From: Actinomycetota bacterium | GTDB lineage: Bacteria; Actinomycetota; Actinomycetes; Actinomycetales; Microbacteriaceae | Length of the DNA: 62,337 bases | Direction of reading: 5' to 3' | NCBI GenBank assembly: GCA_947450345.1 | Contig: CANFVD010000003.1 | Location: forward strand, 1 to 62,337 | Part shown: positions 35,686-41,838 of the stretch, one piece after another | How positions within the stretch are numbered: position 1 is the stretch's first letter | How the letters are laid out: every line of letters starts with the position of its first letter | Translations under genes and position numbers: made by a program | Notes under the pieces: model-generated | What the model was told of the DNA's origin: nothing | What the model saw: the letters and a program-made list of their open reading frames with translations, nothing else | The model's database searches: none

Positions 35686-36924
35686 CTAGGGCGGTGTCCA
35701 ATCCGCGCCGTCAATCGCCCAACACACGCCCACCCAGACCACTTGAAGCGCAAGTGCCGCCAGCACCACTCCCGCCCGATAAAACCAGTTGCGAGGCGCG
35801 GCAAACGGCGCAAGACCGGGAAACAGCGGACCCAGCAGTCGGAACGTGGACGACTGCGGAAAGAAGATGGCCAGGAGGTAGAGGGAATAGCTCAACACCC
35901 ACAGGCGAATCTCCATTCCCGCGCGTCGGGTCGCGGGCAAGAACAGGTAGCCCACGAGGAGCAAGACCAGTCCGGCAAAAATAAGCGGACCGAGCCAAAC
36001 GGTGACATCGCCGGGCACGCCCCACGCCGGCAACCACCAGCCCAGCGCGTGGAACCACGGGGTGAACGGAATCAGTTCTTCGTAACCGATGTATACCGAT
36101 CGCCAGGCAAGCTCCGTGTCGAAGTACGCGGTGGGTACTCCCGTGACCACACCGGCGATCACGACCCAGGCAATCCCCGCCAGACCGGCCGTTGCCGTCG
36201 CCACAGCCAGCCACCAGCGTTCCTGCGACGGAAAGGGATCACGCCGCCGCTCACGCCAGCGCCAGATTCCATAGAGCACGAATGTCAGCGCCATGGCCAG
36301 GGCACCGGGTCGTGTAAACCCCAAGACCAGCAGCAGCGGAATCATGGTGCCGAAACGTCTGAGCACGAGCAGATACAGAATCGCCACGATGAGCAACCAC
36401 TGCAGAGACTCGGCGTAGGCCAGTTGGAGCAGCGGCGAGATGGGCGACACCTGGAAGAGGACGAGCGTAAAGAGTGCCTGAGTCGAGTCCCCGGTGACTC
36501 GACGCACCAGAAGATAGAGCAGGAACGACGTACCCAATGCGGCCAACAGCGATACCGAGACGGCGGCGATGGACCACGGCGCACCCGTCACCACCATGAT
36601 GATTTTCACGAGCATGGGGTAGACGGGCAAGAAGGCCCACTGTGATTCCCCCACGTGTCCGTCGGCGGTGTGCGGAAGTGTCTGGGGATAACCTCCCTCG
36701 GCAATGATGTTGTACCAGCGACCGTCCCACAGGCTCGAGTAATCGAACAGGGTGGGTTGTCCCGACGACCACGGATTCTCGCCCTGAACGCTGGCGTACA
36801 CGAGCAGGATGATGGTACTCGCGATACGACCAGCGAGAAAGATCAGGATGACGGCAAGCCACCACGGAACACGATGACCGGTGCCTACGCCAGCACCCCG
36901 TCGACCGAGTGCGATGTGAGTCAT
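35686..36924 (-). CDS. PIG-V-like mannosyltransferase / integral membrane protein
   Basis: Polytopic; 'SSLWDGRWYNIIAEGGYPQ...ESQWAFLPVYPMLV' matches the PIG-V/GPI-MT-II-like pattern. Confidence 0.8.
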   Translation of the reverse strand: MTHIALGRRGAGVGTGHRVPWWLAVILIFLAGRIASTIILLVYASVQGENPWSSGQPTLFDYSSLWDGRWYNIIAEGGYPQTLPHTADGHVGESQWAFLPVYPMLVKIIMVVTGAPWSIAAVSVSLLAALGTSFLLYLLVRRVTGDSTQALFTLVLFQVSPISPLLQLAYAESLQWLLIVAILYLLVLRRFGTMIPLLLVLGFTRPGALAMALTFVLYGIWRWRERRRDPFPSQERWWLAVATATAGLAGIAWVVIAGVVTGVPTAYFDTELAWRSVYIGYEELIPFTPWFHALGWWLPAWGVPGDVTVWLGPLIFAGLVLLLVGYLFLPATRRAGMEIRLWVLSYSLYLLAIFFPQSSTFRLLGPLFPGLAPFAAPRNWFYRAGVVLAALALQVVWVGVCWAIDGADWTPP

Positions 36925-38012
36925 GCGCGGTCGGCAGTGAGCCAGGCGCGGAGCACGTGTTCGCAGCGCTCAATCTGCGCAACGGGTACGTTCTCGTCGT
37001 CGGTGTGCGCGAGTTCGGGGTTTCCGGGGCCGAAGTTGACGGCGGGGATACCCAGGGCACTGAACCGAGCAACGTCCGTCCAGCCGTACTTGGGCGTGGC
37101 GTCGCCACCCACGGCGTTGAGAAATTCTTGCGCGACCGGTGAGGTCAAGCCGGGTCGGGCGCCGGGAGAACTGTCCGCGACGACAACGTCGTATCCGTCA
37201 AAGAATGCCCGCACACGCTGCTCGGCGTCGGCCTCGCTCTTGTCGGGGGCAAAGCGATAGTTGACCGTGAGCACAGCCTCGTCGGGAATCACATTGGTGG
37301 CCACACCGCCGCTGACGCCCACCGCGCTGAGGCCCTCGCGGTAGGCCAGACCATCGACCTCCACGGTTTCGGGTTCGAATTCCGCCAGTCGCGTGAGGAC
37401 GGGCGCGAGCGCGTGAATCGCGTTGTCTCCCGTCCACGCTCGAGCCGAGTGGGCACGTCGCCCGGTCGTTCGCAGCTCAACGCGCATCGTGCCGTTGCAG
37501 CCACCCTCGAGCTGTGCGTTGCTGGGTTCGCCCAAGATCGCAAAATCCGCCTGCAGGAGAGGTGCGTGGGTGCGAGCAAGTCGCCCCAGTCCGTTGAGGC
37601 TTGAGGCGACCTCTTCGTGGTCGTAGAAAATCCACGTCACATCAACCGTGGGGTCGGCAAGTTCAACGGCCAGTTTGAGGGCAACCGCACATCCCGCTTT
37701 CATGTCGACCGACCCGCGTCCCCACAGCGTTTGCGTCTCGCCGCTGCCGTCGAGGCGGCTCGGTACGTTGCCGTTGATAGGCACGGTGTCGATGTGACCG
37801 GCAACTATCACCCGCTGCGCACGACCGAGGGCCGTGCGTGCCACCACGGCGTCACCGTCCCGAATCACTTCCAGATGAGCGCACGCCGCCAATGTGGCCT
37901 CGATGGCATCGGCCAGCGTCGTTTCGTCTCCAGAAACCGAGGGAATGTCGATCAGCGCGCGCGTCAGGTCCGTCACCGAGTTGGTGGTGTCAAGCGACGA
38001 GTGCCGAGCCAT
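36921..38012 (-). CDS. dapE: Succinyl-diaminopimelate desuccinylase
   Basis: [40 protein letters not shown]; divergent from dapD. Confidence 0.93.
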
Positions 38013-38044
38013 GGTCTCAGTTTATGGGCGGTAACCTTGAGGCT

Positions 38045-38998
38045 ATGTCTGACAACGCCAACGTCACGCCGCGATTTGCCTGGGGCGACGGGCTCTCCAC
38101 GCTGACGGCCGACAATACCGTGCTCGACACGTGGTTCCCGCAGCCTGCGCTCGGCACGATTCCCGCCGATCACGGCGCGCACACCCCGGCCGCGTCGTTG
38201 ACCGAGGCCGCCGGTGCAGATCCGCGCCGCGGCGTTCACACCGAAGTCATCACTCTGCAGATTGACCTCGATGTGCCGCCCGCCTCAACATCAGATGCCT
38301 ATCTTCGCCTGCACCTGCTCTCCACACTTCTCGTTCGCCCCAATGACCTCAACCTCGACGGAATTTTCGGCCTGCTTCCCAACGTGGTCTGGACCTCCGC
38401 GGGCGCCGTTCACCCCGATGACTTTGCGAAACTGCGCGTGGCGCTCCAACGCGACGGCATTCAGGTCTGTGGCATCGATCGTTTCCCGCGACTCACTGAC
38501 TTTGTGATTCCCCGTGATGTGCGCATCGCCGATGCGTCGCGCGTTCGATTAGGCGCTTACCTCTCCCCCGGCACCGTGGTCATGCACGAGGGATTCTGCA
38601 ACTTCAATGCGGGCACACTTGGCACAGCGATGGTCGAGGGCCGCATTTCGCAAGGTGTTGTCGTGGGTGACGGTTCAGACATCGGCGGTGGTGCCAGCAT
38701 CATGGGCACGCTGTCCGGCGGCGGCACGCAACGGGTCTCTATTGGCGAACGGACCCTACTCGGTGCCAACGCCGGCTTGGGCATCGCTATCGGCGATGAC
38801 TGCATCGTCGAGGCCGGGTTGTACGTCACCGCCGGCACCCGCGTCACCCTGGTCGAGGGTGACGCGTCACGCGAGGTCAAGGCACTCGAACTCAGCGGGC
38901 AGAACGGTCTTCTGCTCCGCAGAAATTCCAGCACGGGACGCGTTGAGGCTCTTTCCCGCACGGGTGAGGGCATCACCCTCAATTCCGCGTTGCACTAA
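38045..38998 (+). CDS. dapD: 2,3,4,5-tetrahydropyridine-2,6-dicarboxylate N-succinyltransferase
   Basis: Actinobacterial Dap[61 protein letters not shown]. Confidence 0.95.
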
Positions 38999-39143: not shown

Positions 39144-39860
39144 ATGCTCTCAATGACCGAAGGTGGATCGATGCTCTCCGTAGCAACGACCGCTCTCTTT
39201 ATTTTGGGGTTTGTCGGCATGGCTGCCGGTACGCTCTACTTCCTGCTCGAGCGCAATGAGCTGAAGGCAGCAAACCGCGGCGTTGCGGTTTACGCAGCCA
39301 TCATCACGTTCGTGGCCACCATCATGTACTTCATGATGATGAACCTCGCAATCGCTGGTGGCGTCAACCAGACCATGCCTTTGCGTTACATCGACTGGAT
39401 CATCACCACGCCGCTGTTGCTGCTCGAGTTCGGCGTTGTTGCCGCTCTCGCCGGCAAGGTTCAGAAGGGCCTCATCGCTCGTCTGATGGTTGCTGACGTC
39501 ATCATGATCGTCACCGGCTTCCTCGGTGAGATCAGCGCTCCCGGAGAGGTTGCCACGTACATCTGGTTCATCATCTCCTGCCTCGCTTGGATCTGGATCA
39601 TCGTTGAGGTGTTCTCGCTCAAGGCAACCGGCAAGGGATACGCAGCCAAGGCTGTCAACACCATGAAGTGGTTCGTCATCATTGGTTGGTCGATCTACCC
39701 TCTGGGTACCGCCATCCAGCAGTTCATGTCGATCGGAAAGGTTGACGGCGACTCGCTCGCCACGGCCGGTCTGATTGCTGCCATCATCTACATCGTTGCC
39801 GACCTCACCAACAAGGTCATCTTCGGCATCGTTGCAGTTCGCGCAGCCAAGAACAGCTAG
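39144..39860 (+). CDS. Microbial (type-1) rhodopsin, predicted outward proton pump (DTE)
   Basis: 7-TM protein; helix C RYIDWIITTPLLLLEF (D84/T88/E95), helix D ADVIMIVTG, helix F GWSIYP, helix G ADLTNK(224)VIFG retinal lysine; SD gaaagg upstream. Confidence 0.95.
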   Translation: MLSMTEGGSMLSVATTALFILGFVGMAAGTLYFLLERNELKAANRGVAVYAAIITFVATIMYFMMMNLAIAGGVNQTMPLRYIDWIITTPLLLLEFGVVAALAGKVQKGLIARLMVADVIMIVTGFLGEISAPGEVATYIWFIISCLAWIWIIVEVFSLKATGKGYAAKAVNTMKWFVIIGWSIYPLGTAIQQFMSIGKVDGDSLATAGLIAAIIYIVADLTNKVIFGIVAVRAAKNS

Positions 39861-39874
39861 TTCGAAAGAACTGA

Positions 39875-39912
39875 ACAGTGGGGTCCCGGGCAACCGGGGC
39901 CCCACTGTGTTT
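39875..39912 (+). terminator. Intrinsic terminator after the rhodopsin gene
   Basis: acagtggggtcccgg-gcaa-ccggggccccactgt, 15-bp stem with one G-U pair, then gttt. Confidence 0.9.
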
Positions 39913-40639: not shown

Positions 40640-40707
40640 ACCGTAGTGTGCCAAAATTGTCAGGCTACTTTTCTTCCCCTCGGCCCGCGACCAGAGAGAG
40701 TGTCCTC

Positions 40708-41838
40708 ATGTTCAAGTACCTACGCATGCTGGGCGTTATCGCCCTGTCCACACTCGCGATCTTCGGTGGGTCTGCTGCCGCCCAAGCAGCCCCGTCGACT
40801 GTCACGATTCTCACCGGATTCCATTCGACCGCCGGCGTCGCATTTTCACTCGACGGCAAAACTGCCTTCGTGGTTCAGGACGACGACGGAACCATGGGCG
40901 GACCCTCGTCGCTCGTTGTCATCGACACGACGACCCTTACCCAAGTAGGTGACGCCATCTCGACAGGCGTCAATGGAGCGGGCGTCAACCACTCCATCGT
41001 GATGTCGCCTGACGGCACGAAGGCCTACGTCAGCCTGGGCACGGGCGTTGTCAAGCCGTTCTATCCCGCCACCCTCACGTTTGGACCAGCAATCACCGTG
41101 GGCACGGCGGGCATTGGGCAGGTTGTGTTTACTCCCGACGGATTGCACGCCTACGTTGCCGTGACTAACAATGGCAGCGGTCAGTATGTCAAGGTCATTG
41201 ACGTCGTCACAGACAGCGTGACGGCAACGATTTCCGCGTGCTCGGCTCCCGATGGCCTCGCTATGACTCCCGATGGCCTCACGGTCTTTGTCAACTGCAG
41301 CGACGGGAGCGTTCAGGTCATCGAGACCACCGGTAACACCGTTCTGACCACCTTTACCCCCACCGGTCACCTCCAGGGGACCATGATTACCATGGCGCCC
41401 GACGGTGCACGTGTCTACGTCACGGCGTTCGCGATTCCCACCACAGTCACAACGGTCATCGACACAACGACCTACACCGAGGTGCACCAATTCACCCATG
41501 AGCCCAAGGACGTTGCCTTCACCGCCGACGGCACCATCGCCTACCTCTTTAGTGCCAGCTCGGGAGACCTCGTCCCGACGGACGCCACGACGTTTGCCGA
41601 GGGCACCCCCATCGATGTAACTGTGCCGAGTCCCGGCGATTGGTTCTTGCTGGATAAAAACCCCGTTGTCGACCAATACTGGATTTGCGGAGGAAGCTCG
41701 ATTCGTATTGTCGGCCAGGGGTCCTCCCTTGCGGACACGGGGGCAAACGCGACAGGTGTAACCATCACGACCCTAGCGGGCACCGGGCTCATTGCTCTGG
41801 GACTGGCCGTCACACTCACCCGTCGTCGCCGCGCCTAG
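40708..41838 (+). CDS. Secreted beta-propeller (YVTN/NHL-like) surface protein with LADTG sorting signal
   Basis: Signal peptide from M at 40708; repeats such as 'VVMSPDGTKAYVSLG', 'VVFTPDGLHAYVAVTN'; C-terminus SLADTG + TM + RRRRA. Confidence 0.85.
   Translation: MFKYLRMLGVIALSTLAIFGGSAAAQAAPSTVTILTGFHSTAGVAFSLDGKTAFVVQDDDGTMGGPSSLVVIDTTTLTQVGDAISTGVNGAGVNHSIVMSPDGTKAYVSLGTGVVKPFYPATLTFGPAITVGTAGIGQVVFTPDGLHAYVAVTNNGSGQYVKVIDVVTDSVTATISACSAPDGLAMTPDGLTVFVNCSDGSVQVIETTGNTVLTTFTPTGHLQGTMITMAPDGARVYVTAFAIPTTVTTVIDTTTYTEVHQFTHEPKDVAFTADGTIAYLFSASSGDLVPTDATTFAEGTPIDVTVPSPGDWFLLDKNPVVDQYWICGGSSIRIVGQGSSLADTGANATGVTITTLAGTGLIALGLAVTLTRRRRA

Follow-up and report, generated by a model that had tools for sequence, protein, structure and literature searches.

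The gene at positions 39144-39860 of the window (the whole 62,337-nucleotide stretch of DNA that was analysed) raises the question of which kind of rhodopsin it encodes and how that protein would move protons. A preliminary description had proposed a pump-type retinal protein with a carboxylic cytoplasmic donor and a bacteriorhodopsin (BR)-like core. The present analysis indicates that the product is probably a light-driven outward proton pump that uses green light, a type-1 rhodopsin from a Microbacteriaceae clade related to Exiguobacterium sibiricum rhodopsin (ESR), in which the predicted proton acceptor is a lone aspartate.

The open reading frame is confirmed as a genuine protein-coding rhodopsin gene and not a chance frame. 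A Pfam profile search matched its product to PF01036 with 149 bits (E 1.5e-43; cut-off 24.6), and comparison with orthologs from other genomes gave dN/dS values of 0.08-0.31, indicating that the gene is under purifying selection. An AlphaFold model built from a 38-sequence alignment contains seven helices with a mean pLDDT of 90.2. The source genome, a 1.68 Mb assembly from a freshwater actinobacterium that is 83% complete, has one PF01036 gene. The features of the locus are as follows.

39144..39860, + strand: rhodopsin gene (open reading frame and translation; ATG start; 238 amino acids; seven helices)
39324..39326, + strand: Met61 codon, at the aligned site of ESR His57 and GPR His75 (BR Met56)
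39393..39395, + strand: Asp84 codon, predicted Schiff-base counterion and primary proton acceptor (BR D85), invariant in the alignment
39405..39410, + strand: Thr88 and Thr89 codons, aligned with BR T89 and T90
39426..39428, + strand: Glu95 codon, putative cytoplasmic proton donor site (ESR Lys96, BR D96)
39495..39497, + strand: Asp118 codon, aligned with BR D115
39567..39569, + strand: Phe142 codon, at the site of BR W138, which is Gly in carotenoid-binding XR/ActR
39708..39710, + strand: Thr189 codon, at the aligned site of BR W189
39777..39782, + strand: Ala212-Ala213 codons, at the site of ESR Arg-Glu, the Glu site corresponding to MAR Glu189
39801..39815, + strand: Asp220 to Lys224, predicted second counterion and retinal-binding lysine (D220 and K224 invariant in the alignment)
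39875..39908, + strand: terminator-type hairpin with a 15 bp stem (one found vs 0.9 expected in shuffles; weak alone)

The hairpin suggests that the rhodopsin is transcribed as a single gene.

Translation and alignment reproduced the residues on which the preliminary description was built (D84-T88-E95, K224, D220, L92, D118, M121, W182, Y185, P186 and F142), with R81 also in place. The DTE residues, K224 and the PF01036 domain agree with its assignment of a pump-type retinal protein with a carboxylic donor. Its two proposed losses are likewise borne out: the His-Asp counterion pair is absent, with Met61 at the ESR H57/GPR H75 site, and the BR proton-release pair is absent, with F194 and A212 at the E194 and E204 positions. 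BR T46 is replaced by Ala51, and the F-G region contains no Glu, yet Asp201 and Asp203 sit in the F-G loop. Phe142 instead of Gly argues against a xanthorhodopsin-type fenestration, as had been proposed. The protein indeed has no His over all 238 residues, although this total absence is incidental to the one protein. Most clade members carry His elsewhere, mostly at position 44, and the clade-wide feature seen in the alignment is the loss of the helix-B His.

In the proposed mechanism, green light would isomerise the retinal on Lys224, the Schiff-base proton would be transferred to Asp84, and Glu95 would reprotonate the Schiff base from the cytoplasmic side. Asp84 would act without a His partner, unlike the acceptor of proteorhodopsins, ESR and actinorhodopsins, and Met61 would occupy that place as Met56 does in BR. 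Because the ESR Arg-Glu is gone (Ala212-Ala213) and the BR release glutamates are also gone, the proton would probably be released directly from Asp84, late, past Arg81 and water. The Glu of this Arg-Glu site is equated with MAR Glu189, a residue assigned to the proton-release chain (PMC12002130), through our own mapping, in which it lies seven residues before the helix-G Asp. We infer pumping, its direction, the order of the proton transfers and the working pH range. As read from the sequence, DTE, together with the two counterion aspartates and the Arg of helix C, is the signature of an outward proton pump.

Evidence from relatives bears on this mechanism in both directions. The ESR mutant K96E still pumps, with an M decay that is ∼10-fold slower (PMC8387761), so a Glu donor is workable in an ESR scaffold. 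The rhodopsin of Pontimonas salivibrio (WP_104913209; 'PR, DTE') was expressed in E. coli with retinal and showed an absorption maximum at 538 nm (PMC7979833), as recorded in detergent after a pH 7 wash (PMC7979833). It is taken as the clade gene of the Pontimonas genome (G030) because that genome has one PF01036 gene. Retinal binding and the 538 nm maximum were thus shown for a relative at 53% identity. Transport assays in the same study were confined to rhodopsins red-shifted by ≥20 nm, and the Pontimonas protein is represented by its absorption only (PMC7979833); no transport assay of any clade member was found in the literature. The ESR mutant H57M has a counterion pKa raised from below 2 to 6.3 and absorbs at 517 nm at pH 8.5 and at 565 nm at pH 5 (via PMC10743670). 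By analogy, a comparable pKa could render a pump that lacks the His mostly inactive around neutral pH if nothing compensates. Either a mixed protonation state or ordinary tuning would be compatible with the 538 nm maximum of the Pontimonas protein.

The supply of retinal also weighs against a pump. Neither Blh (PF15461) nor carotenoid oxygenase (PF03055) was found in any of the six genomes of the genus (the source genome and five congeners; 77-89% complete); recognisable retinal-forming enzymes are thus lacking from these genomes, and retinal supply is presumptive. Among six genomes that carry Lys-donor relatives, the Blh model gave a match in five, indicating that the Blh search works. Absence from one genome that is 77-89% complete means little, and absence across six is suggestive. 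Aurantimicrobium minutum has no blh yet produces retinal by an unidentified route (PMC7734400), so the missing blh is no proof of a dead opsin. On another contig of the source assembly (G000 contig C62; L104, 838-4883), a carotenoid cluster encodes phytoene synthase, CrtI, two lycopene-cyclase-domain proteins and a UbiA-type prenyltransferase. The prenyltransferase occupies the place of lycopene elongase, an arrangement as in C50 carotenoid pathways.

Within the genus (L003, L004 and L007), the gene order is dapE, dapD, rhodopsin, a DsbA-like gene and citrate synthase. The rhodopsin is located elsewhere in other genera, and the Pontimonas copy is flanked by genes for PNPase and an M16 peptidase. 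At 40648-41838 (+ strand), the window additionally encodes a secreted beta-propeller protein of the YVTN type. Its LADTG-like motif at the C terminus, membrane segment and RRRRA tail give it the look of a surface protein anchored by sortase. The gene for this protein is missing at L003, L004 and L007, which are otherwise syntenic and in which citrate synthase comes immediately after the DsbA-like gene. Upstream, the listed dapD frame (37838-38998, + strand) overlaps dapE (36921-38012, - strand) on the opposite strand. Because the dapD family model covers residues 80-386 only, the true dapD start is probably ∼240 bases downstream of the listed one, with dapE and dapD divergent.

That the protein is a light sensor or regulatory rhodopsin instead of a pump appears unlikely. 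In favour of a sensor, a source that PMC6106888 cites terms Exiguobacterium rhodopsin a poor pump and a sensor, the photocycle could be slower without the acceptor His, and Ser takes the donor site in one clade member. However, the carboxylic donor is retained in nearly all members, and no transducer-like gene was seen beside the rhodopsin in the contexts examined, in line with Pontimonas, for which no transducer homolog was found (PMC6106888).

The relatives of the window rhodopsin place it with ESR. The best PDB sequence match is ESR (4hyj; 156 bits), ahead of green proteorhodopsin (100 bits) and archaeal BR (∼50 bits), and ESR is also the top Foldseek match of the model (41% identity, TM 0.83; BR ∼25% identity). 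In a maximum-likelihood tree of 83 proteins, the window rhodopsin falls inside a Microbacteriaceae clade of 26 rows with a support of 100/100. The nearest neighbours of the clade are ESR and a Lys-donor sequence from Desulfobacterales, with a moderate support of 85/85. Sequence, structure model and tree agree that the protein is ESR-related rather than BR-related, and the clade either stands beside the ESR-type rhodopsins as their sister group or branches from within them. The protein has the domain, the seven helices and the invariant helix-G retinal lysine (K224) of a type-1 rhodopsin of PF01036. It has the DTE residues and helix-C Arg of a proteorhodopsin in the broad sense (R81, D84, T88 and E95) without the His-Asp pair, and it groups with the ESR type without the Lys donor of that type (DTK; here Glu95) and without its His57-Asp85 pair (here Met61).

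Inward proton transport, or the pumping of some other ion, is very improbable. The residues of the extracellular half-channel, Ala212-Ala213 and Met61, are unlike those of known proteorhodopsins, but DTE with R81, D84 and D220 is an outward-proton-pump pattern, and the protein belongs neither to the NDQ group (L078/L079) nor to the BR/sensory group in the tree, which was built without xenorhodopsin or schizorhodopsin rows. AntR, an inward pump, was weighed as a potential relative and discarded.

Still less credible is a dual-chromophore pump of the ActR/XR type. ActR does occur in the same bacterial family (L046, L047, L049 and L050), and Thr189 may leave room near the retinal ring. However, the phylogeny, a check that the preliminary description had proposed, sets XR, GR and ActR on a separate 100/100 branch without the window rhodopsin, which therefore does not have the ActR/XR placement that would contradict the earlier proposal. 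Phe142 also replaces the Gly of the carotenoid fenestration, and the His is lacking.

The affinity to BR that the preliminary description had proposed did not survive, and a BR-clade rhodopsin in an actinobacterium, like that of Rubrobacter xylanophilus, can be set aside almost entirely: T89, D118, Met61 (BR M56) and the TTPLLLL motif match BR, but BR, archaerhodopsin, RxR and the Rubrobacter rhodopsins lie on one side of a 100/100 branch with the window rhodopsin outside, the Rubrobacter group (including L073, at zero tree distance from RxR, PDB 6kfq) is the true BR-type actinobacterial set, the donor is Glu and not Asp, and the E194/E204 and T46-D96 pairs are absent (F194, A212, A51 and E95). 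The BR-like motifs on which that affinity had been based (TTPLLLL and ADVIMIVTG) do match BR, but they are largely common to ESR-type sequences too, including T89 and D118.

Of 400 Microbacteriaceae genomes sampled, 33 carry a member of the ESR-related clade, and these represent 7 of 85 genera. Outside this family, matches in 397 sampled genomes of the phylum reach at most 36% identity; no relatives were found in viral contigs, and plasmids gave distant matches only. Those relatives of the gene that have names come from metagenome-assembled Microbacteriaceae, including one submitted as Aurantimicrobium sp. Three rhodopsins of another genus (g38; L002, L005 and L006) are 74-85% identical to the window rhodopsin, L002 being closer than L003 and L004 of the same genus as the window. 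None of the window's neighbouring genes is present on their contigs, which suggests that the gene was relocated or was passed between two freshwater genera.

Residues were compared among 26 clade, 12 Lys-donor ESR-type, 2 PR and 23 XR/ActR rows. The helix-B His site is occupied in the clade by Met (20 rows), Leu (5) or Phe (1), and by His in all 12 Lys-donor ESR-type rows, both PR rows and 23 of 23 XR/ActR rows. At the donor site, Glu is found in 26/26 clade rows vs Lys in 12/12 of the other ESR-type rows. The helix-G site of the ESR Arg-Glu is Ala-Ala in every clade member; both Arg and Glu are present in 11 of the 12 Lys-donor rows. The BR W189 site holds Thr (25 rows) or Val (1) in the clade and F/Y/W in all other pump groups compared, and Thr or Val there may enlarge the pocket around the ring of the retinal. 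Site 142 is Phe in 25 rows and Met in one. Two residues are common to the clade, all 12 Lys-donor ESR-type rows and BR: Thr89, which is Val in PR and XR, and Asp118, which is Ser, Ala or Thr in PR and XR. A further check of seven genomes and a second reading of Pontimonas found every sequence without the helix-B His and with Ala-Ala. One rhodopsin of genus g74 (L123, G1048) has Ser at the donor site (DTS) and also lacks the helix-B His. Another genome (G250) carries an ESR-type rhodopsin with Phe at the His site (L048) and a second PF01036 rhodopsin (G250:C1:259571-260308).

In the best tree, Lys-donor sequences surround the clade, which suggests that the donor changed from Lys to Glu. Monophyly of all Lys-donor sequences was not rejected with the two trait columns left out (p-AU 0.078), so Glu may have been regained or never lost, and both readings stand. 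A clean Lys-to-Glu reversal is thus favoured by the branching and is not upheld as firm. Extra sampling of Verrucomicrobiota and Desulfobacterota yielded few more Lys-donor relatives. For the His loss, the simplest placement is the stem of the clade itself.

The preliminary description had suspected a poorly described clade, and this holds, yet the clade had been noticed before. In 2018, the P. salivibrio rhodopsin was put in an 'Exiguobacterium subcluster' with orthologs in acMicro-4 and Yonghaparkia (PMC6106888), and in 2025, an 'ESR Type-1' clade was named in some Rhodoluna (PMC12422013). The latter is probably the clade described here because two rhodopsins of the small-genome genus g11 (L048 and L133) group with the clade or have its residues; both have Phe at the His site, in contrast to Met61 of the window rhodopsin. 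The clade is genuine and thinly described: its existence and the 538 nm maximum of the Pontimonas protein were already known. In the literature searched, which left most subscription journals outside, no remark was found on the clade's missing His, donor or extracellular residues. The preliminary description had overlooked the ESR kinship, the Lys/Glu donor difference, the Ala-Ala site, Thr189 and the clade member that had already been expressed.

Known rhodopsins share parts of this anatomy. The Pontimonas protein (WP_104913209, C3B54_11643; 52.9% identity to the window rhodopsin) belongs to the same clade and has Met at the His site, DTE, Ala-Ala and D118/T89, but it differs in Val at position 189 and in its PNPase/M16 peptidase neighbourhood. 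ESR (4hyj) shares T89, D118, an aromatic residue at 142 and N223, whereas it has His57, the Lys96 donor, the helix-G Arg-Glu and an aromatic residue at 189. The verrucomicrobial and planctomycete ESR-type rhodopsins (PMC5673642, PMC6040077) are likewise green and of ESR type with T89 and D118, but all those sampled are DTK with a helix-B His. The marine actinobacterial rhodopsin MAR/MacR (PDB 8rso) shares DTE and is an outward pump; unlike the window rhodopsin, to which it is 27-30% identical (Foldseek), it has a His51-Asp72 pair and Glu189. ActR (RlActR, 9hfk) and xanthorhodopsin share DTE but form a separate clade with His present and Val at 89, and the carotenoid-site Gly is found in the ActR, XR and GR references. 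Flotillin-associated rhodopsins, considered as another group with variant His and donor sites, were rejected since they are without a carboxylic donor.

The His-Asp pair is regarded as the primary acceptor of bacterial proteorhodopsin-type pumps and as the likely cause of their failure at low pH (PMC12002130). It has been called fully conserved in proteorhodopsins (PMC12002130), and the clade is, on its sequences, a natural counter-example to that rule among putative pumps. In the sources found, the role of the His has so far been probed with laboratory mutants only, and the outcomes of His-to-Met replacement conflict (PMC12002130 vs PMC10743670), such mutants being cited as restoring low-pH function in the former (PMC12002130). 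The clade presents the same change made by evolution and maintained by purifying selection in seven or more genera, with the donor and extracellular residues differing too. Tentatively, and with somewhat less than even confidence, the clade can be regarded as a natural, stable rebuild of a proteorhodopsin-type pump without the His-Asp pair, in which the His and the extracellular Arg-Glu disappeared together, with Glu in place of the Lys donor. A BR-like lone Asp would then have been reached independently, with a shifted working pH range. If this is true, the His would be dispensable for proton pumping in this family, and the shift in pH range would make these proteins acid-tolerant bacterial proton pumps or, conversely, pumps that work only under alkaline conditions. 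The role of the His thereby becomes testable in natural proteins, one of which already expresses well in E. coli.
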